A stretch of DNA of 64,000 bases from Cephalotus follicularis. Taxonomy: Eukaryota; Streptophyta; Magnoliopsida; Oxalidales; Cephalotaceae. The stretch's first letter is position 1. Every line of letters starts with the position of its first letter. The notes beneath the pieces were generated by a model that was given only the letters and a program-made list of their open reading frames with translations, did not search any database and was not told the origin of the DNA. Location of the stretch: positions 1-64,000 of the forward strand of contig BDDD01002691.1 in the NCBI GenBank assembly GCA_001972305.1. The letters run 5' to 3'. This document shows positions 1,098 to 62,218 of the stretch, piece after piece. Position numbers and translations under genes: made by a program.

Positions 1098-1248
1098 CAC
1101 GTCGACGTCTTTAGAATAACATCGACGTCTTTGTGGCAAGAGGGCGCATGTAGCTGCATGCACATGCACATCGATCCGGAGGAGGACATCGATGTCCTCG
1201 TGTAGAATGGCGAAAGACATCGACGTCTTTGGAAAGACGTCGACGCGT
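1098..1248. promoter_or_regulatory. Phased TCGA-palindrome array, U3 block of solo LTR 917
   Basis: Copies of a palindrome of the form AAAGACATCGACGTCTTT have centres (C of the central CG) at about 1103, 1123, 1172, 1190, 1221 and 1241, so spacings are 20, 49, 18, 31 and 20 bp. One copy, GAGGACATCGATGTCCTC at about 1182-1199, is a perfect 18-bp palindrome. The array lies 180-330 bp inside the LTR and upstream of the TATA-like box at 1619, where U3 enhancers are expected. The regulatory role is inferred. Confidence 0.6.
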
Positions 1249-1618
1249 TAACTTTGAATGCCAGGCATGTTACTCTGCTGACAAATAACGTGCAAGGGGA
1301 TTTGGGTTAGAGTTTTTTTTTTCAGGCGCCTTGAGGCATGAGTTAGGACGTGTTGGCCATGCACATGCCTCCTTAACCTGCATAAATGAGATTGTGAGGA
1401 CAAGTGTGGCATGGGTATGAGCATGCAACAAGTGCAAGGAAGAAAGGGACATGTGTGCTAGGAAGGATGGATAGAATGAATGTGGCACTGTCTGGCATGA
1501 AGGCTGAGACAAGGACTAAGAAAACAAACCCAGCTGCTGCATCCAGAGGTGGGGGTGTATCCTAGACACATGTGACCTGCAACAAAAACGCAGAGGAAGA
1601 AGAAACGAGGGTGAGCTG

Positions 1619-1626
1619 CATAAAAG
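1619..1626 (+). promoter_or_regulatory. TATA-like box of solo LTR 917
   Basis: CATAAAAG lies between the two palindrome arrays of this LTR. Equivalent CATAAA words sit at corresponding places in the solo LTR at 7096 (7483-7490) and in both LTRs of element B (27784-27791 and 39141-39148, minus strand), which supports a conserved core promoter. The start of transcription cannot be read from sequence. Confidence 0.45.
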
Positions 1627-2109
1627 ACAGCCTCCATCTCCTAACTTCGGCTGTTATTGATTTGAAAGAACCAGAGGCTTGAGAGGAACACTGTGAGTGT
1701 GAGAAAACAGAAAGTAAAGGAGGGAAAATGTTTCCACCATTGTTGAGCTTGGAGCTTGGAGCTTGGAGCTTGTGGCTTGCAGCAACGGGAAGGATCTAGA
1801 GGCTGCTGTGACCAGTTTGGGGAACGCAAAGAGGTGGACTTTCCAGTTCCTAACTTGGGACAAAAGGTAGGGGAAAGCCATAACTGTAATCTTGAGGTTG
1901 ATATTCATGCATAGTCTATGATTTTGGGTGTATGAAATGCATGTTTCTTGAACTAATTTTGTTGCTGGATTGATGCCATGATATGCTAGATATGTTTTGA
2001 GTATCTGCATGTTGGTTTCTTGCCTTGATTACCCGTTATTATGCATGATTATGGGTTGTAAAGGCTCCTGTGTGTTAAGTCGTGAGGAAGAAGATGACTG
2101 CTTCTCGAT

Positions 2110-2437
2110 AGACATCGACGCCTTTTAATAAACATCGATGTCTTTTGGGTTTTTACCTTGTTACTGATGTGAAAGGGATCGACGTCTATGGAAAGACATC
2201 GACGCCTTTGGCTACCTACCTCGGTTTTGACGTGTTACATGTCGACGCCTAAGGTTCCTACCTTAACGCGTCGACGCCGTCAACAATACGCTGTCGTTTT
2301 GAGGTTCCAGACCTTGAGCGTCGACGCGTATGGATTGGACATCGACGCCTTCTCTGCAGAATGCGCTGACCTTAAGGACTTGGACATCGACGCCTGTTGG
2401 AAAATACATCGACGCATTTTGGATAGACATTGACGTC
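2110..2437. promoter_or_regulatory. Phased TCGA-palindrome array, second block of solo LTR 917
   Basis: Eleven recognisable copies of ACATCGACGYC or GCGTCGACGC type have centres near 2116, 2136, 2180, 2200, 2243, 2272, 2322, 2343, 2388, 2410 and 2431. Spacings are 20, 44, 20, 43, 29, 50, 21, 45, 22 and 21 bp. It lies downstream of the TATA-like box and inside the candidate leader intron 1867-3359. Spacer sequences between the copies are not conserved. Confidence 0.6.
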
Positions 2438-7239: not shown

Positions 7240-7368
7240 GCTGCCGATTGCCATGGGGAGGTAGTCGACTGGACCCTGTGGGAAGGAACCAGCTGCCTGT
7301 TATGAGAGGCAGCCGGCTGGATAGTGTCGGCAGAGACATTCGACTGCCAAGGCAAGGCAGTCGACTGC
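7240..7368. promoter_or_regulatory. Phased TCGA-palindrome array, U3 block of solo LTR 7096
   Basis: Copies of GCAGTCGACTGC / CAGCCGGCTG type have centres near 7245, 7266, 7294, 7314, 7341 and 7362 (spacings 21, 28, 20, 27, 21). GGCAGTCGACTGCC at 7356-7369 is a perfect 14-bp palindrome. The array precedes the TATA-like CATAAAAA at 7483-7490. Function is inferred from position only. Confidence 0.65.
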
Positions 7369-7902: not shown

Positions 7903-8278
7903 TCCAGTCGACTGCCAAGGTGGACAGCCGACTGGCGGGCTAGAGCAGCTGACTGTTTAGCAAGAACAGCCGGCTACTTAATGGAAAGCAGCTGACTGGA
8001 CGTAAGAACTAGTCGACTGTTCGTACATTCGGTAGAATACATCTGCAGAAGGTTGTGTAGTCGACTGCCAACAGAGGGCAGCTGGCTGCCAACAGAGGGC
8101 AGCCGGCTGGATGAGGAAGGTAGTCGACTGCCAACAAAGGGCAGTCGACTGGATTAGAAAGACAGCCGACTGTCAAGAGGAGACAGTCAACTATTAGGGG
8201 AGGCAGCCGACTTCCAGGACTAGGACGGCCAGCTGTCGAAAGGAAACAGCCGTCTGTCACGAGTGACAGCCGACTGTT
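7903..8278. promoter_or_regulatory. 21-bp phased array of CAGYCGRCTG palindromes
   Basis: Seventeen copies with centres near 7909, 7929, 7950, 7971, 7993, 8014, 8062, 8083, 8104, 8125, 8146, 8167, 8188, 8208, 8234, 8251 and 8271. Six consecutive spacings between 8062 and 8188 are exactly 21 bp. The ten core bases vary only by transitions in most copies (GTCGAC, GCCGAC, GCCGGC, GCTGAC), while most of the spacer is not conserved. It lies inside the candidate leader intron 7725-9047. Confidence 0.75.
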
Positions 8279-10365: not shown

Positions 10366-11765
10366 TTACCTGTAACGTCCCCGACCCGAGCCCACTAATA
10401 GCTTAAAGAGAACCTCGAGGATCGGTTGCTTTACGTTGGGTGTGAAACATTACATTCTTTAGAATTCTTGTGTCATGCTAACATACATCATCTACTCATG
10501 CTTTTCTCAATAGACAAATCACATGAGCAGAGTCATACTATTCAACATCTTCCATAACCTTAAATTTAAAGCTTAAACATAATCATCTAATATAAATATG
10601 TCATAACCATATCGTTGTTATACATTTACACAGGATCATCCTTTATCATATAATATAGCGGAAAACATTGTCTTATTACATATCAAAACATTTATCCAAC
10701 CATCATTGCATAGTACATTTCCTTTGCAAAGTTTCTTCTTAAGAGCTCCCTTTAAGCTCGTAATCTCCATTCAATCATTTCCTGAAAATATTTTATTTGA
10801 AAACAAACATTGAAAGGAATGAGCTCAAAATAGCTCAGTACGGTGTTTTTATTGTAAACACATTTCATCGTAATCTTTTTCTAGTCAGTACATATAACCA
10901 GAACATTTCATAAAACATATCACTTTTCTAATTACAAACTCGTAACTAGAACATTTCATAAACATAGAAGTCATAAAAACATTAATGAATCCTTTCACAC
11001 TGCTTCACCGGGGCATTGTGCACTCCCCGATTACTATCCTTATATCACATGCATGTCCGCGAGCACTTTACGCTCCCCTAACATTGAGCATCTCGCTCCA
11101 TTCCCCTTGGATCGTAATCCAACGGTGGTTCATTCATTATTTCATCAAACATTTCCTCAATACTTTGAGTGATCAGCTCAAAACATTCATAAAAATCATT
11201 TCATAACATTTCTTTCACAATTCATAAACCTTTCTCTTCATTTCAGTAATTAACTCAAATGCATTCATAAAACAGTCTTGCATAGCTTTTCTAAAACTGA
11301 TAATTCATATAGAAATAAGACTTTTCAGAGAAAACTTGTAACGTAAACATTAAAGTAGACATCTTCACGAATTCTAAAAGCTCAAGATCATAAATATTGG
11401 TTGAGAATTGAATCCGTTATGAATTTTTAAAGAGGCTGGTTCCCTGTTATATCAGTACAGGAGTAGTAAAATGACATAGGGATTTTCATCAAGAATTTGA
11501 CAAAATTTTGAATTCTACAAAACATAGAAGTTAAAGTACACATATTATGGTTTTTGAAACATCAAGACTTTTGTAAATTCATTAAGAAATGAGAAAGATA
11601 TTAATAAAACAATATGCTGTAAAACTAGAAGTAAAACAGTGGATACTTTGGAGAAAATGGGTATAGAATTTCCTTACTTTGCTTTAGAATTCCTTTCTTT
11701 CTTCTCTAGCTGAATTCTCCTCTTCAATCTCAGCAACCAATACTCTCTTCTCAGTTGAACTACAC

Positions 11766-11774
11766 TTATAAATA
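11766..11774 (-). promoter_or_regulatory. TATA box of F-type solo LTR
   Basis: Minus-strand CTATTTATA, a close plant TATA match, in the same place as CTATTTAA at 15307-15314 and CTATTTAAT at 22864-22872 in the two LTRs of F. Confidence 0.55.
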
Positions 11775-12002
11775 GGCTGAATTGGTTGGCTTGGAGAGTG
11801 AGCTTCTCTCTCTCTCTCTTGTGAGTCATCTCTCCAAAATAGCCCATGTGCCTAAATTCAATCCAATCCAATGGTGACACTTATAATAACATCTGATAAT
11901 ATCTCAAATTTTTCTCCCCTGGCCTACTACGTGTCCATAATTAATAAAAATTAACCCACCAAAGGACAAAAGTCAGATTTGGGCAACTAGTCTGCAGAAC
12001 AA

Positions 12003-12148
12003 AGCGTTGCCGCTTTTCTCCAAGCGTCGCCGCTTACGGGTCTCGTACAAGTCAACTGACACACTTGACTTCAAAGTGTCGACGTTTACATTTAGAGCGC
12101 CGTCAGTTGCCTCCAAAGCGCTGACGCTTTCTCGTAAGCGTCGAACCC
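12003..12148. promoter_or_regulatory. Phased TCGA-palindrome array in F-type solo LTR
   Basis: Copies of AAGCGTCGACGCTT type, with centres near 12008, 12028, 12080, 12101, 12122 and 12142 (20, 52, 21, 21, 20 bp). It lies about 230-370 bp upstream of the minus-strand TATA box at 11766, i.e. in U3. Confidence 0.65.
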
Positions 12149-13225
12149 CCCGAGCATAGGGTCATACTACGGGTCCCTCGAAATATTTGCCAATTACACA
12201 ATAGCAATCATCTTTCTATAATTAATATCTTTAATGGAAATTCGGGTCATTACATTACCAGACTAACCAGTACTTTGTTCTCATCTCGGCATATGTGTCA
12301 TGTATCTCTCATCATCTTGGCTCCGACTGTGGACTAGGGTTTGGATTAATGTCAACCCCAGATAAAACCGTGATAACTATAATTTTTTGAATGCATTGAG
12401 ACTATTGGAAGACATCCATGGAAACCTCGTTTCCATCTCCGAGTGCTTTGCCAAGACATTAAGTCTTCAATGGTCACAGATGTCATAGAGCCTATAACAT
12501 TCAACACAGGTGTGATGATCCCATCTTGCTCACTCGCCCATACATCTCAATGCTGCTCCCACAAGGCCCAAAGATAACCCATTTTCCAGCACTTGGCTAG
12601 TGCTGGGGAAGGCAAAAATCAAAGCCAAGCGATCATTACATAATGCATGCCAGCCGCTCAGGTCTAATGATACAACGTAGACTAAGACCTAATAGTCACC
12701 ATAGACTATACACTACCGAAACAAATAGGACTCCTTTTGACAAAGTTGTTGACGTTCCAAATAGGGTTCCTATGGTGGGTCGGTTCTGTGTCATGCTCTC
12801 AGCATGCACCCGCATCAGCTTTAGGGTAAACCCAAATGGCAATGAGATGATCCATCCTCCCAGTTACAATAGGAGCACGCATAACACGATAAGTCTTTGC
12901 GGTTCATCAATTGCCCTAAGAAAGTGAACCTATGACTCAGAACGTTTGTCAGAAGGGAATAAGGATCTCATTTGCATAGCCACCCAGGCACGAGATCCAA
13001 CCCATCGGTTTACATGGCACTATATGGGTATTCAGTTAACCTGGTCATTAACTTATCCGATTCAACGATTTGGGATTGTACATATAGCTAAAATGCCAAT
13101 TGTTACTGAATATGCACAATTGAACATGAATGGAACTAAGAATGTATTGACTAAGAGTGTATCATATGTTAATAACACATGTCTGCAGCCATCTCTTGGC
13201 TTGCAGGGACACCCCATATCTAACA

Positions 13226-13755: not shown

Positions 13756-15535
13756 TGAGATGTAACGACCCCGACCTGAGCTCGCTAATAGCTCAAAGTG
13801 AACTCCGAGGATCGGTTGCGTTACGTTGGGTGTGAAACGTTACATCCTTTGGTACTATTCTCTAAAAGTACACCACATCATAAACTCATGTCTTGCAACA
13901 TCATACATAATCTTAAATTCAAACTTTACACATAATCATCTGATATAAAGATGTCATAACCATATCGTTGGTCTACATTACACAGGATCATTCTTCTACA
14001 TAAACATATAATACAGCGGAAAACTTTGTTCTTATTACATATCAAAACATTAATGCAAATATCATCGCATAGCCTTTCTTTCACAAAAACTCCTTCTTAA
14101 GAGCTTCCTCTAATCTCGTAATCTCCATTCATTCATTTCCTAAAAACATTTTATTTGAAAACAACATTGAAAGGAATGAGCTCAAAATACCTCAGTAAGG
14201 TGTTTTTATAGTAAACACGTTTCATCATAACAATTTTCTAGTCAATACATATAACTAGAACATTTCATAAAACATATTACTTTTCTAGTTAATATCATAA
14301 CTAGATCATTTCGTAAACATGAAATTCATAAAAACCTTAATGAACCCTTTACACCGCTTCACCGGGACATTGTGCACTCCCCGACTACTATCCTTACATC
14401 ACATGCATGTCCGTGAGCATCTCGCTCCGTTAACATTGAGCATCTCGCTCCATTCCCCTTGGATCGAAATCCAAGGGTGGTTCATTCATCATTTACTTTG
14501 AGTGATCAGCTCAAAGCAATCGTAAAAATCATTTCATAACATCTCTTTTACAATTCATAAACCTTTCTCTTCATTTGAGTAATTGACTCAAAAGAGTTCA
14601 TAAAAACAGTTTTGTATAGCTTAACTAAAACTGATAATTCATATAGAAATAAGCATTTTCAGAGAAAACTTAAAACATAAACATTAAATTAGACATCTTT
14701 ATGAATTCATAAAGCTTAAGATCATAACAATTGGTTGACAATTGAATCCGTTATGAATTTTTGAAAGTGGCTGGTTCCATATGAAAATAGGGCATGAGCA
14801 GTAAAATGAAACATCAATTCTCATCAAGAATTTGACAGAATTTCGAGGAAAATCAAACATAAAAGTTAAAGAGGACATCTTAAGGTTTTGAAAACATCCA
14901 ACCATTAAATTTGTAATCAGGAAACGAGCAAGATATTATTTAAAGAAGTTGCTGCATAATCCAGGAATAAAATAGTACCCAGACAGCAATTTAAAACATG
15001 AATTTCCATCAAGAAAGCGACAGAATCTTGAAACATGCAATGCATAACAGTTGAAGAGGACATCCTAGCGTTTCCAGAACATCCAACCATTCAAAATTTC
15101 ATCAACAATTGAACAAGATATCAAAAGAACAATCTGCTGCATAATTGAAAGCAAAACAGGGGATGCTTTGTAGAGAATGGGTATAGAATTTCCTTACTTT
15201 GCTTTAGAATTTCTTTCTCTTTTGCTCTCCACGAATTCTCCACTTCACACTCAGCAGGAACACTTTCTTTCTCAGCCAAAATGACTGAGTTCAACCCTCT
15301 TAGCCGTTAAATAGAAGGATTACTTGGGAGGCAAGTCTTCCCCCCTCTCACACAACTCAATTTCCTCTCATAGCAGCCCATGTGTTTAAATTCAACCAAT
15401 CCAAGTGTTTACACCTATTAGATTACCAAATAACATCTCATATCATCCTCCCCTGGCCTGCCACGTGTCCAAAATTAAAGATTTTTACTCACAAAATGAC
15501 AAAAAGCCAGATTTTGCATTTTGTCTATAACTCAA

Positions 15536-15867
15536 AGCGTCGACGTTTTCTTTCTAAGCGTCGCCAGTCACGGGCTTGACCTGAGTTTTTCACTTCTATC
15601 CCAACTAAAGCGCTGATGCTTTCTTACAAAGCGTCGTCGCTTTAACTCTTCATCCAGGTCAACTGACACTCTTGACTTCAAAGCGTCAACGTTTAAATTT
15701 AGAGCATCGTCCGTTGCCCAAAGCGTCGACTCCTTCTCGTAAGCATCGCCGGTGTGAGGGCTTCGTCCAATTTACCGTTGCACTGATTTAAAGCGCAGAT
15801 AGAAGGGGTCTAAGCGTCGCCCGTTACTAACCAAGCGTCGACGCTTGAAGTGGAACTGTCGGCGCTT
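15536..15867. promoter_or_regulatory. Phased TCGA-palindrome array, left LTR of F
   Basis: Twelve copies of AAGCGTCGACGCTT type with centres near 15541, 15562, 15614, 15635, 15687, 15708, 15727, 15747, 15797, 15818, 15839 and 15860; spacings alternate between about 21 and about 51 bp. It lies 230-550 bp upstream of the TATA word in element orientation. Confidence 0.65.
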
Positions 15868-15956
15868 TAGTCAATTTTTTTTTGTCAACTCTTAGCCTTT
15901 TAGATTGACGCTTTCAACATGACATCCATCGAAAACAAATATCCAATTTCAATTTT

Positions 15957-16075
15957 CTTCCGGGGGCGCTGCCCCCGAGCCCCTTCCCGCTGACTGGGCA
16001 GCGGGACCCCCCGTCCGCTCACCTGGGACTGGAACCCCCGAACCCCCTGAGCGTAGGGTCATACTACGGGTCCCT
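15957..16075 (-). other. GC-rich hairpin block in F LTR
   Basis: GGGGGCGCTGCCCCC at 15961-15975 is a perfect stem-loop core, followed by CCCGCTGACTGGGCAGCGGG, a second hairpin. The block stands out in an AT-rich LTR and recurs at 23517-23632. It lies just inside the upstream end of the LTR in element orientation. The solo LTR 10371-12254 lacks it. Confidence 0.7.
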
Positions 16076-16189
16076 TGAACAATTTGCCAATTTACACAAT
16101 AGCAATCATTTTCCATAATTAATATCTTACATGGAAATTTGGGTCATTACAATCTACCCTCCTTACAAAAATTTTGTCCTCAAAATTTG

Positions 16190-16420: not shown

Positions 16421-16453
16421 ATATTTTTGTAGTAGAGATACATGGAATACGTT

Positions 16454-24324: not shown

Positions 24325-24570
24325 AAACAACATTCACCTTTAGGTTCACCTGCCACGCAGAATTCACCCTTAGGTTCAACTGCTTCTGTGTAATTCACCC
24401 TTAGGTTACCTATTCAGCGGGATTTGCCTGAGGTTCACCTGCCATGCAGAATTCACCCTTAGGTTCACCTGCTCTGGCGGCATTCACCCTTAGGTTCACC
24501 TACCATGTGGCATTCACCCTTAGGTTCACCTGCTCAGGCAGAATTCACCTTATTGGGCTCACCTGCTAAG
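24325..24570. repeat. Tandem repeat, ~32-bp unit, about 8 copies
   Basis: Imperfect units built on TTCACCCTTAGGTTCACCTG follow one another within the C LTR; the second half of each unit (e.g. CCATGCAGAA, CTCTGGCGGCA) varies more. Units are non-coding and absent from the other LTRs. Confidence 0.85.
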
Positions 24571-25802: not shown

Positions 25803-26969
25803 TTAACTGTCATGCCCCCGTTTTCCCAAGAAGGCAACATAAAAGGAAGGGAAATCAACACAACATAATTCATCTCATGCAATATTGAATACAAACAAAA
25901 TCCTTCAGTAGCGGAAGCAATAACATGAAGTAAGCTGAATTAAGATATGTATCACGCATCCTATACTACGTGATACCCACAGAGTTTATATAAACCCAAC
26001 ATCATTGTCAATCGCCCATAAACGGAGCGTGATGATACAGTACGAAATAAAATAAACCCAAGTTACAATAATCCAGTTACATAGTCATTGTTCAGTAATC
26101 AAATACATAAAATAAGAGAAATAACTTAGTCTTCTCGTTAAGTCTCCTTGCGTGCTCCATATCAAAACCCACTCCATTAATCCATTACAGTAGGGGGTTA
26201 GCCTTTGTCCTCACTCGGCTAAGTAGAAAAGTTTATGTATACAGTTCAAGGTCAAAGGTAATGCGTATCATGAATGAATGCATAGTGATGCAGTATGACA
26301 TGTAATTTTCACAGTAATTATATCTTCGTATTTACATATAAAAACATATACATGTTCACAGTACAGGTATAACCTCATGAGGCTATATCAACATAGGTAG
26401 TAAGTATGTCCCCAAAAGGAACCAGACAAGCAGGTCGTCATAACCGTTGCCACCTCCTGGCCCCAACGTCATGCACTCTTAACCCATCCCCATTTGCGAA
26501 CGGTTTGGAGCAAGTCCTCCGTATGTTGCTTAGCACGGTGGCTAAACCAACAGCAGGTTACTAGCACAGTGGCTGAGTAATCAAGCGGTTACAAACACAG
26601 TACAATACAAGTCAAGCAACAAAATATGATTACTTGATCAAAATATATTTGTTTAAAATATATTACCGATTAACAGGTTGTTATAAGTTATAATACTTAA
26701 AACAATACATTTCTCCGTCTTTGGGAATACTCCCCCAGTCATTTGAAAATATAAGTTTATATTTGTCAAATATACATTTTCTTACAAAAAAGGATTATAA
26801 TAATCATGCAAGTTTTCCAATATGGTTAATACATTCAGTAATCAACCAAAATCAATTTACAGTACAGTAGCAGTTCAAATGCAGGGCAAACATATGCTCA
26901 GAATGCACCTAGGGTTATGGGTATTTAACCTAGGCCTATCACCTTCTCTAAAGGTTCAATTTCTGTTAT

Positions 26970-27167
26970 AACAGTCGACTGTTTTTCCATAACAGTCGGC
27001 TGGATCCTTGAGTCAGTCGACTGTTCTTCCCCAACAGTCGACTTGTTCATCATAAGTAATCAGTAGTCGGCTGTCTTCCTTCGATAGTCGACTGTTCTGG
27101 GCAAAAATGCATGCACAGTCGACTGTTCTTGCTTGACAGTCGGCTGGATGATCGAGTAGTCGACTTT
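26970..27167. promoter_or_regulatory. Phased TCGA-palindrome array, inner block of left B LTR
   Basis: Nine copies of ACAGTCGACTGT / CAGTCGGCTG type, centres near 26976, 26997, 27018, 27039, 27068, 27089, 27120, 27141 and 27161 (21, 21, 21, 29, 21, 31, 21, 20 bp). The same array is present at about 38326-38530 in the right LTR. Confidence 0.7.
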
Positions 27168-28019
27168 TTTACTTAAACCGTTTGCTGTTATGGGCTGGAC
27201 AGTACCAGTAATTCACTTCTAAACCCATTCAACAAGCAATTGAAACTTATCCACACGTATTCAGACCCCAGTATATCACCAGTAGTCATATCATGGCCTA
27301 AAATACAACTCAGTTCATGCATTATTCTCCGTTTTCATCATAGTTCAAATGAAATCCAAACATGGTATTGCATGAAAACCAATCCAAAACTCGATACAAA
27401 ATTCAGTGTCCATGTTAGGTTATTTATTAACAGTAACCACAACATCAATACAGAAATCCACAGCCAACAACTACACCATCCATTTATAACATCATTACTC
27501 TTAAACTCAAAATGCATGCATAGAATTATCTACTATTTCCCTTACCTTTGATTTCAAGTTAGAAATCGGAAGTCCACCTCTTTGTGTCTCCTTTCCAGTA
27601 TCTTTGAGCCTCCAAGTAGCTCCAAGAACAGTCCAATAACTCCAATCCGTGCTCCAAGTTTAACAATGGAGAATCCTGTCAATTTCTCACTATCTTCTCT
27701 CTCAATTTCTCAATATCTTCTCTCTCAATTTCTCTGGTTCTTTCTTATCAGGTTGTAGGGTGAGAGAGACGAAGGGGAGAGAGCATTTATGCAGTCCTCT
27801 CTTCCTCAACTCGTTTTGCATGGCACTAAGGGCCCTTCTCTCCCATTTTCACTTGCATGCACACACACTTGTCATTCTTTCTCTTCCCCTCTGTCCTTAC
27901 AGGTCCTGGCATGGTGGTGCATGCTCAACACGTCTTATTGCATGTGATGGCTTCTGAAGATGCTCTTCCCATGTCAGTTTGCATGTGATTTCGCCATTTG
28001 TCACAAAAACAGAGCACGA

Positions 28020-28172
28020 ACCAGTCGGCTGCCCTTCCCTGGCAGTCGGCTGTTCACCAGGAGATCTGTTGCAAGTGTCACGACAGTTGGCCAGTCGGCT
28101 GGTTCCTCACGCCAGTGGACTGCCCCACACCTCAGCCTATCAGTAGGGTGGTATATCACACCAGTCGGCTGT
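28020..28172. promoter_or_regulatory. Phased TCGA-palindrome array, U3 block of left B LTR
   Basis: Copies of CAGTCGGCTG type with centres near 28026, 28047, 28088, 28096, 28117, 28145 and 28166. It lies upstream of the TATA-like box on the minus strand, about 170-310 bp inside the LTR. The counterpart in the right LTR is at about 39378-39535. Confidence 0.65.
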
Positions 28173-28377
28173 CCAAGCCAAAATTCCCACAATTATACTT
28201 AGAATCACACTTCTAAAAGCTCTAAGTTAATTTAAATTCAAGATATCAACCAGGAAATTCACCTTTTATTAATTCAAGGTAAAACTACATCAAGGATTAC
28301 AATAATACATGAAATTGAATTTCCGGGCGTTACAATCCCCCCTCCTTCAAAGAAATTCATCCTCAAATTTGCATATA

Positions 28378-28575: not shown

Positions 28576-28577
28576 GA

Positions 28578-28970
28578 TGTTGGGATAACGACCTATATGG
28601 CAACCTTTAATTACTAAAACAATTTGTTTGAGGAATTAACAAATTAAATTATGAAACTAAACAAGCATACAAGAACAACTAATACAATTGTAAGTAAAAG
28701 AGATAAGGGATAGAGTGTGTGCAAACGATTTATAGTGGTTCGGAAAAATCCGTGCCTACGTCCACTTTCTCAAGAACCCCTTGAGATTCCACTAGGTACC
28801 ACTAGCAACCTTAATTTTAAACCTTTGCAACACTTTCAACATACAATCAAGTGAGTATATGTGTTTGTAACATATCAAAACATGCATACATATATTTCTT
28901 GTTTGTTACTTGTTTGTTAATCATCGAAACATAACCTTTAACACATTTAAAGGGGTGGCAAAAGCCAACA
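28578..28970 (-). repeat. Left (3') LTR of element E, short form
   Basis: Plus-strand reading TGTTGGGATAACG...AAAGCCAACA, 393 bp. It matches both ends of the right LTR but not its middle, so it has no palindrome array. Confidence 0.9.
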
Positions 28971-29720
28971 ATCTCCCCCTTTTTGATGATTGACAAAACA
29001 AACCTAATATTGCATGATTTTGTCATAATTAACATTTAACATTACTGAAATAAACTCAACTATAAATTATCAAGTCTAGAACATATGTTAAAGTGATTTA
29101 GCAACAATTCTCCTCCTTTTTGTATGCATAGTCTCAAAACGACATTATAGACAAAGCAATGCACACCTAAGCAATTTTTCAATTCAGTTTACCAATGCAA
29201 TACCAATGCAACCAATGCAATTTACCAATCTCCCCATTTTTGTCAAACAACAAAAAGTTTAAGGAAACTCCCCCTTAATCATAGCATATGTTTAAATATT
29301 TAATAATGTGCTTGAGTACCAAACTCCCCCTTTTTATCGAAAACATTCATAAATTCAATATATGGAGAGGAAACAATATAATGGCAAGCATATATAATGT
29401 AAATTCACATCAAGTTCATTTTCATTAATAGCACATTTTCATATCTAGCTCCCCCTAACCATAAGCTATCAATTTTTCCTTAAAACATAAAGCATTTTCC
29501 CCCTTTTTGTTAGCATAAAAAAGATAATGTCTAAAAATGATACCAATTAAACAATTTTAAAGGAATATCAAATGACAATAAAGGAATACCGATTGAAATA
29601 AAATCCATTTAAAATAAAAAATTTGAGAGATACCAAATGTTGGATAAAATGATACTAAATAAAAGATTAAAAGAAGCATTCTTATTATCAACATAATATC
29701 AATACCTCCCCCTCAACAAA
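28971..29720 (-). other. Repeated polypurine-tract-like region of element E
   Basis: On the plus strand the word CTCCCCCTTTTT or a close variant recurs near 28972, 29109, 29222, 29269, 29323, 29449, 29498 and 29705; on the element strand these are AAAAAGGGGGAG polypurine tracts. The last one abuts the LTR and would be the plus-strand primer. Serial tracts before the 3' LTR are, as I recall, typical of SIRE-type copia elements. The rest is AT-rich and non-coding. Confidence 0.75.
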
Positions 29721-29922: not shown

Positions 29923-31371
29923 CTAATCTACCACAATAATTGCAACAAAATTGAGGCTCATTTTCTTAACAAAGAAATTTTTAAAATGTTTGACATTTTT
30001 CATTTCTTCATAGCCAAGACCGGCTTTGTCAAACACGCACCTTTCAAGACCTAAAAGATTTTCCAATTTAGCACTACTATTTGAAAAGGTAGAAAAAGAT
30101 TTCTTCAAAGCATCAATTTCAAATTTTAGCTTTTTATTTTCTTCCATAAAATCAATTGACAATTTTGAAGAGACATTTAAAATTTCAATCTCATTCATAT
30201 AAAAGCTATTTTTACTTTTTAGAGATTCAATTTCACTTATGTGTTTGCTATTTTCACTCTTTAGAATCTCCAATTCTTTAGAAATAGAAATAGCATTTTT
30301 CTTTAATGACTTATTTTTAAAACAAACATTTTCATATTCAACATATAATTTCTCATATACATTTTGCAACTCATCAAAAGTAAAATTTACCTCATTTTCA
30401 CTTTCATCTCCACTTGTATCTTCCTCCATAGCCATAAGAGAAAAATTTACAACTTCTTCATCACTTCCACTTTCTTCGGAGCTTGAGAGATCACTATCAT
30501 CCCAAGTAGCTACCATTGCCTTCTTTTTCTTGGAATGCTCTTTGATGAATTTTTCTTTCTTCTTAAGATTTGGGCATTCGTTTTTGAAATGGCCCGGCTT
30601 TTTGCATTCATAGCAAGTTGGCTCTTCCTTCTTGCTTGATTCTACATTGTGAGGGAACTTCTTTAAAGCCTTCTTGCCCTTTTGACTTTTTAGAAACTTC
30701 TTGAATTGAGAAGTTATGAGTGCTACATCTCCATCTTCATCACTTTCACTATCTTCCTTTGAAGCTTTTAGAGCAATTGACTTCTTCTTCTTGACTTCCA
30801 CATTCTCATGATTCTTCATTGTTGTCTCATGTGTCATCAAGGGACCTAGGAGTTGTTCGAGTGGAAGAGTGGAAAGGTCCTTAGACTCCTCAATTTCTGT
30901 CACCTTTGGAGTCCAACTCTTCGGCAAGCACCTTAAAATTTTCCTTACAAGTTCTTGGTTAGAATATGATTTGCCAAGATTTTTAAGAGAATTAATAATG
31001 GTAGTAAAGCGAGTAAACATATCACTAATACTCTCATTTTCATGCATAAAAATTAATTCGTATTCATGAACAAGCATGCTAATTTTTGATTCTTTTACTT
31101 GATTCGTGCCTTCATATGTGACTTCTAACAAGTCCCACATTTCTTTTGCCGAATCACAAGAAGATATCCGATTAAATTCATTAGGGCCAACGGCACAAAA
31201 TAAAACATGTTTAGCTTTAGAATTCAATTGGAGCATCCTAAAGTCATTATCATTATATTCATTTTCGGGTTTAGGAGAGACTACTCCTTCTATTGTTCTT
31301 GTGGGCATCCTAGGACCATTTACAATAATATGCCACAATTGATAGTCAAGAGATTGTAGAAAAATGGTCAT
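29923..31371 (-). CDS. Gag polyprotein of element E (482 aa)
   Basis: Single open frame. Residues 1-190 form the copia gag core (LQSLDYQLWHIIVNGP; SAKEMWDLLEVTYEGTNQVKESKI; LPKSWTPKVTEIEESKDLSTL). A CCHC zinc knuckle, CYECKKPGHFKNEC, lies at about 253-266. A KKKAMVATWDDSD acidic/serine patch follows at about 283-320, then a coiled coil at about 340-455. It would package element RNA into particles in the cytoplasm. The start used is the first Met of the open frame; the usual SIRE gag has some extra N-terminal residues, so the true start may lie further upstream. No pol follows. Confidence 0.88.
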   Translation of the reverse strand: MTIFLQSLDYQLWHIIVNGPRMPTRTIEGVVSPKPENEYNDNDFRMLQLNSKAKHVLFCAVGPNEFNRISSCDSAKEMWDLLEVTYEGTNQVKESKISMLVHEYELIFMHENESISDMFTRFTTIINSLKNLGKSYSNQELVRKILRCLPKSWTPKVTEIEESKDLSTLPLEQLLGPLMTHETTMKNHENVEVKKKKSIALKASKEDSESDEDGDVALITSQFKKFLKSQKGKKALKKFPHNVESSKKEEPTCYECKKPGHFKNECPNLKKKEKFIKEHSKKKKAMVATWDDSDLSSSEESGSDEEVVNFSLMAMEEDTSGDESENEVNFTFDELQNVYEKLYVEYENVCFKNKSLKKNAISISKELEILKSENSKHISEIESLKSKNSFYMNEIEILNVSSKLSIDFMEENKKLKFEIDALKKSFSTFSNSSAKLENLLGLERCVFDKAGLGYEEMKNVKHFKNFFVKKMSLNFVAIIVVD

Positions 31372-31525
31372 CCTAGTCTTCTAAAAACTATAGTTATTTC
31401 TGTCAAAGAACGGAGGTCTAGTAATGGAGGAACCTTCTAGTCCTATGTTTAGATTCATTTGGTTTGCCATGGATCTTTATATCTCTAACAATTAAGAATT
31501 ATGAGATAACCTCTCTGATACCACT

Positions 31526-32697: not shown

Positions 32698-32727
32698 CAA
32701 GACATGTGATGGGTCTCGGATATAACC

Positions 32728-43953: not shown

Positions 43954-44005
43954 TCCACCCCCCTTAAAAGAGATTTCGTCCCAAAATCAGAACCATACTC
44001 ATTCC

Positions 44006-48484: not shown

Positions 48485-50874
48485 GTTTAAGAAGAATTTA
48501 GTCTAATACTGTCCCAAAACATGACCAATGCTACTGAAAACACAATGGACCAACTCCTAGATGATCCTCTGACAAATGGGTAACTCTCATCACACGTTTT
48601 CCCCATCCTTCTGAAAACCTGCCACATAGAAACAAAAATGCGGCTGAGCAAACCTCAGTACGTATAAGGAAGTAAAACATTAAATGGTGAACAAATAATT
48701 TGAACTTTAAAATTCAGCAAAGTACATTAATAAATATTCTTCAAAATGTAAAGCACAATATTTAAAAACGAATAGTTATAAATAATCATAACTTTATGAA
48801 AAACATAACATCATAATTCCAAATTTTATATGATTTCATAATTCCATAACAGAGAATTCTGACATACATACATATATAGGTGCAAGGGGTTCGCGAGGCC
48901 CACATGCTCTGACGGAAAAGTCATGTACGACACTACACAAACAATCCCAAAACTGAATACTAAATTCTGACAATAACTAGAGTCGACTCATACGCCTCAA
49001 AAGGATCCATATCCTACCCTCGGGATACATATTTAAAAGAGAAGCCGTAGACCGATCACACCGCCACGGTAGGTGTCATGCCCCCCGTGCCAAAGGACAT
49101 GCCTATGATACCTCATAGGTAGGGGTTTTCTCTGTATGTTATTATGTTAAAACATTGTTTTATTCGAAAACAACTTAAAACATAGTTATGTATAAATACT
49201 GTCTCCAGAGATATCTGAAATTATTTAAAGAGAAACATCAACATCCTCCATATCTGAAATCATAATCCGAATCGTATCTAAAGTTTGACATACTTCCAAA
49301 AGTGGAAGTCATGTCCAAAGTAAATAACATATTTTCGACAGTGGAAAAACATGCATATCAAAATCAATATCCGATGTAACAATATTGAAATCCATTTCAA
49401 TGAGATTATTATCAAAACGATAATATCCGTATCAAAATATGAATTTTATTTCGAAAAAAACCAGGAATAGAATCGTAAAGCATCAACCCGTTGAAATGAT
49501 GTAACTGTACATAATCATCAAACAGTCAAAAAATTGACTTTATTCAATTTAATCGAGGAGATATCCAAGAACGAAGAATCCGTACCTTAGCTGTTTGAAA
49601 AATCTAAACAAACACGAATACCAAACAAAAGCACCCTAGGAGTGTCCTAATCTCCACCACGGATGATATCAAGACTTAGACATATAAGCCCACACATCAC
49701 ATAACATAAAAAGAAGCAATTATCAAAACTGTCAGAGAAAGCGTGGACAGTTTATTCTTAGGCGTCGACGGTTTCATTGCATAAAAGGACAAAGCGCTGA
49801 GCAAAGTGTCGACTAAACACAGCCTAAAACAGTAAAAAGCGGAGACGCTCAAGAAATAAGCATCGACGGTTTGCGTCGAACACAGAATACCAGTTGCAGA
49901 AAATCAATTTCAAAACATGAGTAAATCTGATTTTTCATAAACAATGAGCATAAATAACAGCATGTACGTTATGTGACATGTTATGCAAGTTCAAAAACGC
50001 CAGAATAAACCTATGATTTCATGTAAAGTATAAAACACATTCTGAATTGAAATTTTCGGATATATAAACAGTTTATGGAAAAACCTTGAGCTATAATCTG
50101 ATTTTTGTTTCTTAGAGTATAAAACAGTAACATATACATATCTATAGCGTAATTTATTTGATTAGAATACCAGTATAATGAAATATGCACATAAATTTTA
50201 TATATGAACAAATTAAGAAAAGCAGAAAATTAGTTTCAACAGGCCTCTTAAATCATGCTCGAAATTAAATTCTAGTAGGTTTAATACAAACTAATGATTG
50301 ATATTGAAACTACATAGTACAAACTACAACTTTTGTTTAGAAAATACCTTCAAAAGACGTCAAAAGCGATGTAGAAAATGTGCTCAAGTTGCTGTGTTGG
50401 TTTGTAAGAAATGCAGAAATGGTTTAAGTTCTTAAAACAATTGGTCTGTTAAGTGCAAAAATCCGTGTTTAAATGACAAAATCGGTGTTTTAAGACATTA
50501 CCAAACAAACCAAAACGCGTTAGATACATATGGAAATCAGATAGCCAGAAGAAGGAAACAATCTTTCTTTCCAAAGACACTGTCACCGTCCAAAACAAAT
50601 AAGGAAGATGACTAAAGCGTCGACAGTTTACTTAAAGCGTCGACGGTTAAGCCTTCCGTTACAAAACGCGTCAAAGTCACACTTTTTGGCGTCCACGTAT
50701 CTCACAGCACCCAAAGCGTCGGCGGTTCTAATAAGAGCGTCAGCGCTTTGTGCCCAGAAAACAAAATAAAAGAAATTCAAAATAAAATCAAAGAGTTCAA
50801 ACCATAGCATATATCAAAAGGTATAAATCCAACATAAAATGATAAACGTGTCAGCATAGAAACGGGATAGTACA
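48485..50874 (-). repeat. Left LTR of D2 (shared border with D1)
   Basis: Matches 55841-58226 closely, ending GGGATAGTACA before a pyrimidine-rich ACCCCCCACCCCC run. Palindrome arrays at about 49740-49885 and 50610-50757 (second block centres 50621, 50641, 50672, 50693, 50720, 50741). Confidence 0.87.
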
Positions 50875-50939
50875 TCCACCCCCCACCCCCTTTAAAAAGG
50901 ATTTCGTCCTGAAATCACAACCATACACAGACCTTATTC

Positions 50940-54240: not shown

Positions 54241-54249
54241 AAAAAAAAC

Positions 54250-55638: not shown

Positions 55639-55643
55639 CAATC

Positions 55644-58226: not shown

Positions 58227-58700
58227 TTGGTTTTAACTGGTGATCAGGATGATCACAAGTTCATTTCGAGTTATGTGCGTGTGTTGTTAACTGAAGGAAA
58301 TCAAAACTGGAAACTAGTAAGAACTCCACGTTGAAAGTAGAATATGTATTGACCTTACATGCCGTCTAGGTAACTTTTTGGTTGCAGAAATTCATTATGG
58401 AGCTTTATGTGGTTCCAACCATCGCACATCTAGTTATGGTGTACTCAGACAGCGATGGGGCTTTTGCACAAAGCCAAAGAACCCAAGTCTCACTGTCGCT
58501 CCATGTATATACAGCGATGGTATCACATGATCAAGGAGATCATACTTAAAATAGATGTTACTTTGTAGAGAGAGTTGCCATGGAGGCAAACCTAGTAGAT
58601 GAATTGACCAAAACCATTAGCACCGTAGTACTCGAGCAACAGCGAAAGTACAATGGGCTTAGGCTATAGGTCTTCTTGGCTTGAGGGCCAAGTGGGAGAT
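58227..58700 (+). pseudogene. Copia RNase H end (element G), 3' part
   Basis: Plus-strand reading, eroded, with YSDSDGAFAQ-like and AKEPKSHCRSMYIQRWYHMIKEI phrases that match the copia RNase H end (GAIAQAKEPRSHQRSKHI...YHLIREI), then VDELTKTIS corresponding to ADPLTKPL. AAGTGGGAGAT at 58690-58700 is the polypurine tract. It has several breaks. Only the last part of pol is present; the rest is replaced by D2 sequence. Confidence 0.75.
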
Positions 58701-61340
58701 TGTTAGAGTGGGGTGTTCCTGCATGCCACGACATGGCTTTATGCTTGTAAACACACTCTCCATTTATACAATCTAAATTCTTTTTCATGTTTATGTGCAT
58801 ATTTCTGTAGTAAATGGAAACCCACTATATGTATATCCCAAACCATCTTAAATTGATTTGGTGATCACCATGTGATCCGAGTACACATATAGTGCCCCGT
58901 CGATAAAAGGGTTGGATCTCATGCCTGAGAGGTTATGAGAATGAGATCCGTAATCCCTTATGACAAAACATTCCAAGTCATGGGTTCACTTTATTAGGTC
59001 TATTGAGGAACCGTAAAGACTTTCCATATTATGCTTGCTCCCGGGTCATATGGAGGATGGATCCTCTCATTTCCATTTGGGTTTACCCTAAAGCTGATGC
59101 GGGGTTCGTGCTAGGTAGCATGAGACTGAACAGACCCACCATAGGAAACATATTTGGAAAGTCATACCTATGTAATTAGGATTCCTATAGTCTCGGTAGT
59201 GTATAGTCTATGGTGACTAGTATATCATTCGTGAAGCTACGTTGTATCGTTAGACTTGAGTGGCTGGCATAGGTTGTGTTGTGACTGTTTGACTTTGATT
59301 TCTGCCTTCCACAGCACTAGCCAAGTACTGGCAAAAGGGTTGTCTTTGGGCCTTGTGGGAGCTTCATTGAGATGTATGGGCGAGTGCGCAATAAGGGATC
59401 GTCACACCCGTATGCAGGGTGATCGGCTCTATATTATTTATGTCCATTAAGACTCATAAAACCCCGATCAGGTATAGGCATACTGGAAACAGGGTTTCAA
59501 GGGAAGTTTGTCGAAAGTCTAAATGCGTACATGAATTTATAGTTATCGCAGCTTTACCTAGGGGTGATATTATTCCGAATCCAAGGTCGTGATCAGAGCC
59601 AAGTATGACGTAGGATACATGACACATATGTCGTTGACTGGATAAAGTACTGGTTAACCGGATGTCAACTTATAGAAATGGGTAATTCCATGGATCTGGG
59701 GGATGATAGGAATCATATTGGGGTCATTCTGATAGTTAGGGACTATTAGAGTGGTCGTAACAGAACTCCTAGGATGTTCTGGGAAACTTATAATCGAACC
59801 GGGTTCCAACCGGGCTTTCGGGTCCCATCATGTTTTGGAATCAAGTGACGTGTGGAGTGGAAGGATGACACCTCTGAGTTGTTACTTAGACAAAGAATAT
59901 CTATTTTGCTGGGCTTTATTCATGTCATAGGAAGTGAAAGCAAGCGGCACCATAAATAGATCATTTCGGGCTGAGAGGTATTTTTGTCATTTATGAATTA
60001 ATGGAAAATTCATTGAGAGAGAGTGCATTTGAGAATTTAGGTCCAGCCCTAGATTTTGGTTAGCTTAGCCGAACCCTAATGCCCCATGTGCCTTGTGTAA
60101 CTTAGTTACATATTTGGTTGGATGCTAAGGAAATTGGTTGGTTGCCAATGTTGACTTTGTCAACGTACTTAGCCTTTAAGCGACCTAAAACTTGCTTGGG
60201 AAGCTCCATATGGCCGGCCACTTTTGAAGATAGATGAGTATGTGTGTATGTGTTATTCTCTCATTGGTTGAACGAATAAAGTGTGTGGGGAATTTTTTTA
60301 CTCTTCACACAAGGACACGGCATGCACACAAAAGTAAGACAAGTGAATTCATTTTAATTCAATTCAAAAAATCAAGTCTTCTCTCATCCTCTCTCTTCTT
60401 CCTGGACGACTCTCTCTTTCTCTCTTTTTTCTTCCATAGCCATGAGCTTCATTTGTTTAGGGTATGAGTGCAAGAACTTGGAGGTTCTTGAAGAGTGAAG
60501 CCAAAGATATTCTCCTGTCACCCTCCCTAGCAACTTTGATGGTGAAGATATCTCCATATCTCTACCTTTATTGTTTAGAATTTTCTAGGATCTTTGAACC
60601 AACAAAAATCACTTCTTATAAAGCCTTAGCCGTGCCTATGGGAGCAATATTTGTGAAGGTGGATTTCTTGGAACTCAAAGGAAGGAATTGCCAAAAGTAT
60701 GGAGGAGTAAAGGCTTTAGGTAAGCAACTTTCTACTTCATCTTTTTTACTTCTTGGTGAAGTGGTGGGTCAGTTGGTGCTAGAGATTTTCCAAGCCCTAG
60801 ACTTTGTTATTATATGAAGGTTATTATGTGTTCTATATGTGGTCGAAATCTTAGCTCATTCCAAGCGGGAATGATACCCTTAGGGTTAGGATATAGGATA
60901 GATGTTAAGGTGGAGCTTGAATTAGGGTATGTGTTGAACCCTAATTCCTTTTGGCATTGTGGCCGAATTTTGAGATGAGTTTCTCATGCTCTACTACTGT
61001 CCTAGCATGTGTTTAATGTGTTATTAAACCCTTATGGTTAGGCCTCTAGGGTTAGTGTCATGGTGGAATTGGATTAGGATATGTGTGCACCCTAATTCGA
61101 ATTTTGGTTGCTAGCCGATTTTAGGGTTTCTGTAACCCTACTCCACCTGCACTTTCCCTTGCTTGGAACCTGCCATGGTGACTTTTAATAGTCCAATTAG
61201 TGATCATTGGACTTAATTGGGACATTTTATGGCATAGGTTATGGGTGATTTCATTGCAGGAATCAAAATTTTAAAATTAGTCACCCTAAACCCTATATGC
61301 CTGAAATGCATTTCTTCCGCTGCATTCGCAATTTCCAACA
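58701..61340 (+). mobile_element. Copia LTR (element G), 2.6 kb
   Basis: Starts TGTTAGAGTGGGG right after the polypurine tract and ends TTTCCAACA. Homologous to the minus-strand LTR 6646-13225 along its length. The following TTAATCAGAGAG could be a degraded primer-binding site, in which case this LTR is bordered by a 3' internal end on one side and a 5' internal start on the other. It holds AAACCCTA/TAGGGTTT words near 60860-61140 and no palindrome array. No gene is seen in it. Confidence 0.82.
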
Positions 61341-62218
61341 TTAATCAGAGAGACAAAGTGTGTGGCAGAAAAATTGAAGAATAAATAAAAACTTCAAGGA
61401 TTTTTATTTATTGAATTAAAGAAATACAATCTAATGGCTTGTTCTTTCCTAATAACCTTAAAGGTTTAGCTGCTAAACATTGGAATTAAACTAAAAACTG
61501 AATTAAAGAAGAAAATTGGCTACAAAGGTTGTCACTAGCTTGTACTCCTTCTTTTTGTGACCTAACTTGTCTATTCATACTTTACAGTCCCGTGCAACAA
61601 GAAAAGGAAAAAATTTTAACCTACTTAAAATTGTTTAAGGTAATAATTAGAAGCAGAAAACTTTCCATTTTTGCTATCAGGCATCGTAGGCGTCGATGCT
61701 TTGATATGTTGAATACGCTAAGCGTCGACGTATATGTTGCGATATGGGGCACACTTGAGTGTTAAGCGCCGATGCTTAAAAGAAAGGCGTCGACACTTAA
61801 CTCGTGAAGACAGGAGGCGTTGACATCTTGCTCATTACACGTTAACGTTTAAACTACTGTTTTATTTGTGCACTTTTGGCGTTGACGTCTTGCTCATGGC
61901 GTTGACGCCTAAACATTGAATTCCCAGCACGTTGACGCCAAATGGATTGGTGTTGATGAGAATCATAAATCTGCTGAATTGTTCATCATGAAGTGCAAAA
62001 CGTCGACACTATCTTTGAAACCGTCAGTGCTTAAGGTCTAGGTGTCGATGCTTAACTCTGTTTTCTGCAGAATTTTGCCAATTTGAACCATTCTTCATGC
62101 ACTTTGGTCTTTTTGGTCTTGTACCTGAAAATCAACATAACACAACCAAAGTAGTCTATTCCAAGCATAAACATATCACAAATAAATCATTAAAAACAAC
62201 ACATTTTTATGCTAAACA
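61341..62218 (-). mobile_element. Tat/Athila-like LTR fragment with palindrome array
   Basis: On the minus strand it begins TGTTTAGCATAAAAATGTG at 62218 and shares the GATTTATTTGTGATATGTTTATGCTT and TTTTCAGGTAC block with 6120-6231. It interrupts copia integrase sequence that ends at 62219. The left border next to the copia LTR G is not sharp, and no TSD pair could be confirmed. Confidence 0.5.
61680..62052. promoter_or_regulatory. Phased TCGA-palindrome array in Tat/Athila-like LTR
   Basis: Copies of GGCGTCGACGCTTAA or GCGTTGACGCC type with centres near 61685, 61694, 61726, 61770, 61791, 61821, 61843, 61883, 61903, 61933, 61954, 62004, 62025 and 62046. Spacings are mostly 20-22, 30-32, 40-44 and 50 bp. 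Many copies have TG or CA in place of the central CG, suggesting an older, decayed array. Confidence 0.6.

Follow-up and report, generated by a model that had tools for sequence, protein, structure and literature searches.

The window analysed here, 64,000 nucleotides of contig BDDD01002691.1 from Cephalotus follicularis, carries LTR retrotransposons and solo LTRs in which short palindromes recur in arrays. The first-pass annotation had placed arrays of TCGA-centred palindromes in at least eight LTR contexts; seven of these hold far more sites than their dinucleotide-shuffled controls do (each LTR was shuffled 20 times, giving the expected counts quoted below), and the eighth, the LTR at 10371, is weak. 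The TCGA label merges three motif classes: class 1 (CAGYCGACTG), class 2 (RCRTCGAYGY) and class 3 (AAGCG-N4-CGCTT), the last with TCAG, TCGA or TCGC as its middle in 33 of 51 near-matches. The separation of classes 2 and 3 is partly definitional, since the class counter does not assign TCGA sites to class 2 when they have an AAGCG-like flank.

Class-2 sites number 7 in LTR W917 (0.20 expected), and class-2 arrays with no strand assigned lie at 1099..1246 (6 sites, lags 20,49,18,31,20) and 2112..2436 (11 sites, lags 20,44,20,43,29,50,21,45,22,21). The LTR starting at 7096 holds 16 class-1 sites (0.05 expected) in arrays at 7262..7367 and 7905..8276 (13 sites in the second), both given plus-strand sense because the LTR start, TGTAACGCCCGG, resembles that of element D. 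On the minus strand follow a solo LTR at 10371..12255, related to element B (79-80% over its first part) and with only 3 class-3 sites (0.00 expected), and an LTR of the Ty3 element B at 13761..16151, with 8 class-3 sites (0.00 expected) and a second LTR of 94.7% identity at 21319-23709. The Ty3 element D has a minus-strand LTR at 25815..28334 with 12 class-1 sites (0.00 expected; arrays 26972-27166 and 28022-28171) and a second, 96.2% identical, at 37173-39692 (arrays 38330-38544 and 39379-39529). The Ty3 element F has 6 class-3 sites (0.10 expected) in its minus-strand LTR at 48485..50875, a second LTR at 55840-58227 and a related LTR at 41685-43954. The LTR near 61341 holds 5 class-3 sites (0.05 expected) in an array at 61690..62051, strand unassigned.

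The arrays are real and genome-wide. In the plant genome, 1.58 Gb in all, there are 197,377 copies of CAGTCGACTG but 939 of its reversed control, and GCGTCGACGC, found in classes 2 and 3, has 73,186 against 121; RCRTCGAYGY pairs number 182,252 against 447, and AAGCGTCRVCGCTT is counted 38,569 and 38,280 times on the two strands, with perfect palindromes counted twice, against 47 and 53.

Element E lies on the minus strand, with a 1172-bp 5' LTR at 31526..32697 that holds 12 class-1 sites (0.00 expected) in an array at 32160-32524. Its gag (29923..31380) is of the copia type, with Retrotran_gag_2 (E-value 4.5e-31) and a zinc knuckle. The 3' LTR (28578..28970) lacks 773 bp, including the entire array, and a foreign solo LTR inserted into the 5' LTR, at first suggested by TSD-like ends, was considered and rejected, as most genomic matches are full-length. 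Among the 43 matches listed, E itself included (40 of 8,125 candidates were scored), 34 run from base 1-3 to at least base 1139 of the 1172-base query, and five contigs carry two copies on the same strand, separated by a few kb; because genomic copies are mostly full-length, the deletion is assigned to the short 3' LTR. At 28971..28980, also on the minus strand, a polypurine tract, AGGGGGAG-AT, adjoins the TG of the LTR. The terminal tract thus reads AGGGGGAGAT followed directly by TG, and four more exact AGGGGGAG octamers lie at internal positions 1813, 2070, 2195 and 2251, the Sirevirus arrangement of a tract, AT and TG with several identical upstream copies. Judged by these junction hallmarks, element E is a Sirevirus. 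Its PBS region, TATCAGAGA, shows one difference from the Sirevirus PBS, TATCAGAGC.

Palindromic repeated motifs (RM) upstream of the TATA box of Sirevirus LTRs have been known since Bousios et al. 2010, who described 8-32 boxes per element (LTR plus linker) in the upstream LTR half, just before a conserved TATA; the boxes are short, dyad-symmetric and CpG-rich, with divergent flanks, and differ between elements, and their function was left open (PMC2829016). Twenty-one aligned E copies carry 14 class-1 sites per LTR, a number that, like the 12 of E itself, lies above the RM threshold of at least eight copies per element. Sites in these copies span positions 175-560 of about 1160, in the upstream LTR half and shortly before a TATA box (CTATAAAAGG) at position 603, which lies ~65 bp past the final site when E alone is counted and ~40 bp past the final site of the 21-copy alignment; a distance of 40-65 bp separates the end of the array from the downstream CTATAAAAGG in the copia LTRs of E and L001. 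The CGG-CCG signature is absent from the class-1 form in E (CAGYCGACTG), and the CAGCCGGCTG form is rare in the genome (7,846 occurrences vs 197,377). The D, B and F arrays have no Sirevirus carrier, all three elements being Ty3/gypsy.

As the first-pass annotation had it, E is Ty1/copia and B, D and F are Ty3, yet its term chromovirus for B and D is unsupported, because the sole chromodomain match belongs to an F-related element (44006-44686) and, at 23.4 bits, falls just under the Pfam cut-off of 25.1. Each class occurs in both superfamilies, and one class predominates in each tested LTR: class 1 in copia E, L001 and L024 and in Ty3 D and L012, class 2 in copia-like L017 and in Ty3 L019 and L012, and class 3 in copia L013 and in Ty3 B and F. 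The copia LTR of L021 has one class-3 site by the class counter, yet related boxes are visible. Within one copia lineage, LTRs similar downstream of the TATA box differ in motif class; a 394-bp downstream stretch of L017 matches E at 77%, but L017 carries class 2 where E carries class 1. The three classes, the use of mainly one per LTR, the class switching and the earlier Sirevirus description (PMC2829016) had all escaped the first-pass annotation.

A dominant spacing of 20-22 bp, already noted at first pass, holds genome-wide: exact CAGTCGACTG pairs number 37,144 at 20-22 bp (reversed control 132), against 236 at 23-26 bp (control 1), and 964 at 29-39 bp (control 7). After de-duplication of sampled-locus spacings by spacer similarity, 42 of 92 class-1 spacings fall at 19-22 bp and none at 23-26 or 33-39; for class 2, 19 of 67 fall at 18-22, 3 at 25 and 4 at 33-39. 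Whole-turn spacing of the longer lags was not confirmed. Class-1 lags of at least 23 bp are non-random (R 0.43 at 10.5 bp, p about 0.0001) but mix two phases, and a 7.25-bp period outscores 10.5 bp over all of them (R 0.565). Pairs at 40-43 bp are in phase, and this lag amounts to two steps of ~21 bp, because every such pair contains a degenerate intermediate site (18 of 18 with one at 19-23 bp; shuffled spacers 1 of 18). At 27-29 and 48-52 bp the offset from phase is ~3.3 bp, or a third of a turn, and the class-1 lags outside 19-22 and 40-43 taken together show the same offset (R 0.55, n 32), so neighbours 27-29 bp apart would sit on different helix faces. The class-1 lag of 31 is mainly peculiar to the D family. 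Class-2 lags lie near phase zero but weakly (R 0.26, p about 0.04), and without the 40-43 lags R drops to 0.15 (p about 0.43).

The spacers are mostly unlike, as first described: mean identity is 0.385 within arrays, 0.342 between arrays and 0.306 after letter shuffling, with at least 80% identity in 1.1% of within-array pairs. The motifs are conserved in the copia LTRs. In five of five comparisons of diverged copia LTRs, four using E, motifs are 84-91% identical against 55-72% for array spacers, a gap reached by 0-3 of 364 or 0 of 510 cyclic shifts; the 21 E copies diverge by 0.038 in their motifs, by 0.055 in the array spacers and by 0.059 elsewhere, despite the CpG-rich motifs. In the Ty3 D family, the gap is small (0.886 vs 0.823, reached by 74 of 344 shifts), and candidate TATA boxes of Ty3 LTRs lie far downstream of arrays or between them.

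The sites also have a direction. Genome-wide, the two-sided variant CAGCCGGCTG falls short of the about 24,360 occurrences expected under independence. In 23 class-1 arrays, each holding two or more one-sided variants and many of them homologous, 104 sites follow the majority direction against 7 in the minority; 5000 random-direction draws gave a mean of 37 minority sites and never fewer than 25. Both the deficit and the shared direction are unexpected for a plain symmetric homodimer. A strict dyad maintained by compensatory change is ruled out by the observed CAGCCGGCTG count lying below expectation. One strand-biased mutation behind the polarity is also rejected, because sense-strand variation appears to be C/T in class 1 and G/A in class 2. 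Relative to coding sense, polarity is not universal among 19 LTR stretches: the upstream half is the worse in E, both D, L001, L024, both L012, L017 and one L019 LTR, as well as in both F, both B, L020 and L013; L015 and the other L019 LTR are tied, and L014 (2:4) and L021 (0:1) are opposite.

The presence of the same short palindromes in unrelated families suggests that the same host proteins read them. The arrays may be regulatory platforms in the U3 part of the LTR, upstream of the TATA box, on which host sequence-specific DNA-binding proteins, probably dimers, occupy sites in a 20-22 bp register and most likely switch LTR transcription on, a reading to which we give an even chance. This register, about two helical turns, would place neighbouring sites on one face. 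Each LTR family would mainly use one of the three classes, gained through U3 replacement or through local duplication plus selection, and unrelated superfamilies would share a class because the same trans-acting factors act on both. From these patterns we infer a protein reader, its host origin, its dimeric state and its activating effect. Of the binding platform proposed at first pass, superfamily sharing without evident spacer homology stands, as does the general look of binding platforms ahead of the promoter, whereas whole-turn phasing beyond two turns and strict two-fold symmetry do not. More tentatively, and probably claiming too much, the classes could be interchangeable U3 codes, each for a different member of one host (or mobile-element-derived) protein family and used by copia and Ty3 elements alike, mainly one class per lineage, with switching gaining activation or escaping silencing. 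The core CpG of classes 1 and 2 and of many class-3 sites means that the reader may sense DNA methylation. Other conceivable readings of the motifs are DREB/CBF-type (G/A)(C/T)CGAC sites and methylated W-box mimicry.

As to origin, a single array module may have moved from family to family through recombination or through template switching, which we regard as plausible though not the likelier course, and which is compatible with activation as well as with silencing control. The array region varies among LTRs that match downstream, and U3 varies likewise in Tnt1 (PMC1838419) and crapaud (PMC10787394), as far as these accounts describe it. Arrays in L033, L039 and L042 resemble the D array region (78-82% over 72-77 bp), and spacers of D and Sirevirus arrays have a mean identity of 0.362 against 0.290 when letter-shuffled. 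Yet positional base preferences can explain this excess, the best spacer match at a distance of 21 bp (8 of 11) was also attained in 414 of 500 column-permuted controls, and the D and E LTRs gave no BLAST match over 60 bp at E 1e-6. The transfer may be old, its spacers having diverged since.

Epigenetic control rather than activation is an unlikelier function: a factor on dense same-direction motifs would prevent LTR silencing, much as VANC does for VANDALs, which are DNA transposons, or would mark LTRs for silencing. The shared direction within arrays and the class switching within one copia lineage speak for it, as does CpG, which is retained in most sites of all three classes and reaches 3.17 per 100 bp in the E array against 1.31 in the remaining LTR. 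Published VANC21 targets are similarly dense, one-directional, repeat-grown and different between related elements, but the published account has VANC encoded by its own element and its motif all but restricted to that family (PMC5735166), whereas here two superfamilies share a motif.

Compared with activation by a host reader, it is very improbable that the arrays are decayed, functionless 21-bp tandem repeats with CpG-rich palindromes kept by mutation bias. Local duplication does occur, as the identical 11-bp spacers within the 7905 array show, and spacers are slightly more alike within than between arrays, yet CpG-rich motifs would be expected to decay faster and are instead the best-conserved array part between diverged copia LTRs, and the same register persists despite unlike spacers, with 23-26 bp almost empty. 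That the palindromes work as RNA or DNA hairpins can be set aside almost entirely: neighbouring palindromes might pair across an 11-nt loop, but the common sense-strand variant CAGCCGACTG gives a C-A mismatch in an RNA stem, wobble-tolerant CAGTCGGCTG is the rare variant on the sense strand of E and D, and the copia arrays lie upstream of the TATA box.

It is customary to regard plant retrotransposon superfamilies as separately regulated, and here a vocabulary of about ten bases, amounting to hundreds of thousands of sites, spans copia and Ty3. If a host protein family reads these motifs, many LTR elements of the genome would have it as their master regulator or silencer, and the class switches would document conflict between host and element. 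A literature search with the motif letters returned unrelated titles only among the matches listed, and in a search of titles and abstract openings outside subscription journals and preprints, no cross-superfamily report was recognised among the matches listed.

Among known systems, the Tnt1/Retrolyc1 subfamilies with different U3 modules resemble the copia lineage in that U3 is replaced or diverged and the rest of the element kept, but the published case concerns one superfamily, with no box vocabulary common with Ty3 elements in the account consulted (PMC1838419). VANC targets share the dense, same-direction, short noncoding motifs, evolved by repetition and varying in type between related elements (PMC5735166, PMC10398659); they differ in having their own binding protein and near confinement to a family, and a palindrome is nowhere mentioned in PMC5735166. 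Closest are the Sirevirus motifs: the grapevine box CGGTCGACCG equals CAGTCGACTG except at one symmetric position pair, and the Tnd-1 box is ACAATCGATTGT (PMC2829016). All 2010 boxes given in that account except that of Tnd-1 carry the CGG-CCG signature, which the main class-1 form here lacks, and the motifs were called Sirevirus-specific relative to the other Ty1/copia elements compared, whereas the present classes also occur in Ty3/gypsy; a fixed 20-22 bp register, polarity and class switching are absent from that description in the sections consulted (PMC2829016). The kind of array is already known, and the additions are its sharing with Ty3/gypsy, class switching, the fixed register and polarity; if a host protein family reads the motifs, this would extend the 2010 Sirevirus motifs beyond Sireviruses.

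Three kinds of motif make up the palindrome arrays: CAGYCGACTG (class 1), RCRTCGAYGY (class 2) and AAGCG-N4-CGCTT (class 3). A scored LTR carries mainly one class, and every class is found in two superfamilies. Across the whole genome, the perfect class-1 form CAGTCGACTG occurs 197,377 times against 939 for its reversed control, and GCGTCGACGC, a match to both class 2 and class 3, 73,186 times against 121. RCRTCGAYGY pairs, with TCGA-centred class-3 sites counted in, number 182,252 (reversed control, 447), and class 3 gives 38,569 + 38,280 matches (47 + 53), perfect palindromes being counted on both strands. In a sample of 19 stretches of 10 kb from hand-picked contigs (15,459 N's), at least three class-1 or at least three class-2 sites lie within 150 bp in 11 stretches and in none of five shuffles, with totals of 68 class-1 sites (shuffled mean 4.6) and 122 class-2 sites (14.6). 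Exact AAGCG/CGCTT half-sites in this sample have an inner gap of 4 in 19 cases; gaps of 7 and 10 occur once each, gaps of 0-3, 5 and 6 never, and a single shuffle produced no pair at gaps 0-12. With one mismatch allowed, 33 of 51 class-3 sites have TCAG, TCGA or TCGC in the middle, and the shuffle gave 1 match. The arrays that the first-pass annotation described as TCGA-centred thus stand, but that description lumps three motif classes.

The contig holding the window, which is its first 64 kb, has 230,875 bases in a 1.577-Gb assembly. Self-comparison delimited the LTR pairs of elements B (13761-16151 and 21319-23709), D (25815-28334 and 37173-39692), F (48485-50875 and 55840-58227) and E (28578-28970 and 31526-32697), the last nested inside D. 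In B, D, F and neighbouring elements, Pfam analysis of nine window ORF pieces identified Ty3-type gag, protease, RT, RNase H and integrase-related domains; in the same scan the F-related element gave a chromodomain match slightly under the cut-off, and E the copia-type Retrotran_gag_2, upholding the superfamily split drawn earlier. E is a Sirevirus, as its 3' junction, AGGGGGAG-AT-TG, and four more exact AGGGGGAG octamers upstream match the hallmarks set out in the available part of PMC2829016. Its internal part is short (2,555 bases), gag being the sole ORF of at least 200 aa. It inserted adjoining the 3' LTR of D, and CAAGA on each side (28573-28577 and 32698-32702) forms a 5-bp target-site duplication. 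Compared with 31526-32697, the 3' LTR of E (28578-28970) lacks 773 bp, array included, with an AATTTT repeat at the deletion junction, so the two LTRs form a natural pair with and without the array. The complete LTR of ~1.15 kb is the usual form among the 43 genomic matches listed, which makes the array part of the copia LTR itself. The window also holds a local tandem duplication at 24332-24567 (78-81% identical, offsets ~89 and ~119 bp).

Classes were scored in 20 LTR stretches, with coding sense and superfamily taken from domain scans; shuffled means were at most 0.35 everywhere, bearing out the claim of arrays in both copia and Ty3 LTRs. Copia E and the genomic stretches L001 and L024 carry 12, 11 and 13 class-1 sites and no others, L017 (placed in copia from LTR similarity alone) nine sites, all class 2, and copia L013 six, all class 3. 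L025, copia-like by an 81-bp match, has seven class-3 sites and L021 one. Among Ty3 elements, D and L012 have 12 and 8 class-1 sites, the two LTRs of L019 and L012-upstream 7, 8 and 9 class-2 sites (other classes 0-1), and B and F 8 and 6 class-3 sites. L020 has two class-3 sites and one class-1 site, and L015 two of class 3. The window LTRs near 917, 7096, 61341 and 10371 hold, respectively, seven class-2 sites plus one class-3 site, 16 class-1, five class-3 and three class-3 sites. The split between classes 2 and 3 is partly definitional, because the counter puts TCGA sites with an AAGCG-like flank into class 3; class 1 is distinct from the others. The downstream part of the E LTR matches parts of L017, L013, L021 and L025 (71-78% over 81-487 bp), yet their array regions differ. 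In L004, a class-1 array at 1501-1685 (C1:7490-7674) lies downstream of a copia gag, outside the adjacent upstream LTR, and contains a class-2 box, ACATCGACGT; it is perhaps in a linker, and Sirevirus linkers bearing boxes were described in 2010 (PMC2829016, available part).

Exact class-1 pairs at lags (distances between neighbouring sites) of 13 to 43 total 64,525 in the genome, with 37,144 at 20-22 bp, 236 at 23-26 and 964 at 29-39. The ~210-fold excess per lag of the first bin over the second confirms the dominant 20-22-bp spacing. The 86 class-1 pairs listed, the first in the genome, have lags of 19 (3), 20 (12), 21 (40), 22 (2), 27 (4), 28 (8) and 41-43 (17); of 100 class-2 pairs listed of 182,252, 69 are at 19-22, 16 at 41-43, 3 at 13 and 12 at 25-37. 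De-duplicated lags from the sampled loci are, for class 1 (n=92), 42 at 19-22, 10 at 27-29, 1 at 31, 18 at 40-43, 13 at 48-52 and 8 elsewhere, and for class 2 (n=67), 19 at 18-22, 10 at 29-33, 13 at 41-46, 12 at 48-53 and 13 elsewhere. Sites of the copia E family come mostly by fours (20,21,22 / 51 / 21,21,21 / 64 / 21,20,21 / 52 / 21). Another layout, 20-22-21-28-21-22-20, occurs in L035, slightly changed in L010 and L042, and among variants in L034 and L040; it is nearly mirror-symmetric around its 28-bp middle step.

Class-1 lags of at least 23 are not random, since R is 0.43 (p ~0.0001) at 10.5 bp. Those of 40-43 keep the phase and amount to two steps in succession, with a degenerate site at 19-23 in 18/18 versus 1/18 after shuffling; the others deviate from the phase by 3.1-3.3 bp (R 0.55-0.66). 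Class 2 has a weak phase near zero (R 0.26, p ~0.04; without 40-43, R 0.15, p ~0.43). Of the helical phasing originally proposed, the two-turn step is thus solid, whole-turn phasing beyond 21 bp is unsupported, and the 27-29-bp step, the second one in class 1, is displaced by ~1/3 turn.

Strict dyad symmetry does not hold. One-sided CAGCCGACTG occurs 177,392 times on both strands, beside the 197,377 perfect sites, and two-sided CAGCCGGCTG 7,846 times, about a third of the ~24,360 expected if halves were independent. Of 40 class-1 arrays, many of them related, 23 have two or more one-sided variants; in these 23, 104 such sites share the array direction versus 7 opposite (mean of 37 minority sites at random). 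The relaxed half lies mostly upstream with respect to coding sense: E 6:0; D 7:0, 7:1; L001 7:1; L024 7:1; L012 5:1, 3:1; L017 10:0; L019 4:1, 2:2 (second LTR tied); B 5:1, 4:1; F 3:0, 6:2; L020 3:0; L013 2:1. These counts are non-independent, several coming from the LTR pair of a single element or from related elements. L014 (2:4) and L021 (0:1) are opposite, and L015 is tied.

Between diverged copia LTRs, motif identity was 0.844-0.914 and array-spacer identity 0.554-0.717 in 5/5 comparisons, a contrast somewhat inflated because sites were picked in one sequence per pair, E entered four comparisons and alignment may be site-anchored. Cyclic shifts attained the difference in 0-3/364 or 0/510 cases. 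Across 21 E copies, divergence was 0.038 in motif columns versus 0.055 in spacers. For Ty3 D and L012, the difference (motif 0.886, spacer 0.823) was not significant (74/344 shifts).

The sharing of arrays between D and E may reflect transfer or parallel gain, judging from sequence comparison. Their LTRs gave no BLAST match over 60 bp, and mean identity between D and Sirevirus spacers was 0.362 versus 0.290 when letter-shuffled. The best D-Sirevirus match between spacers of sites 21 bp apart, 8/11, was not above column-permuted controls (414/500 attain it), so a common positional base preference suffices as explanation. The D array matches arrays of L033, L039 and L042. On the sense strand, such class-1 spacers of D and the Sireviruses show no evident homology in sequence but share a positional bias, often a pyrimidine followed by C and A and then mainly purines; this bias might belong to an extended site.

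In the available part of PMC2829016, Bousios et al. (2010) reported, for 13 Sireviruses, palindromic motifs repeated upstream of TATA, including CGGTCGACCG and ACAATCGATTGT, without settling what these do; the present arrays are of the same type. The accessible portions of PMC6911290, PMC11656987 and PMC4029996 report no such arrays. As far as the available source text goes, the nearest parallels are the VANDAL/VANC motif arrays (PMC5735166, PMC10398659) and modular U3 change in Tnt1 (PMC1838419) and crapaud (PMC10787394). New beyond the Sirevirus motifs are the sharing with Ty3/gypsy, the class exchange, the fixed register and the polarity.
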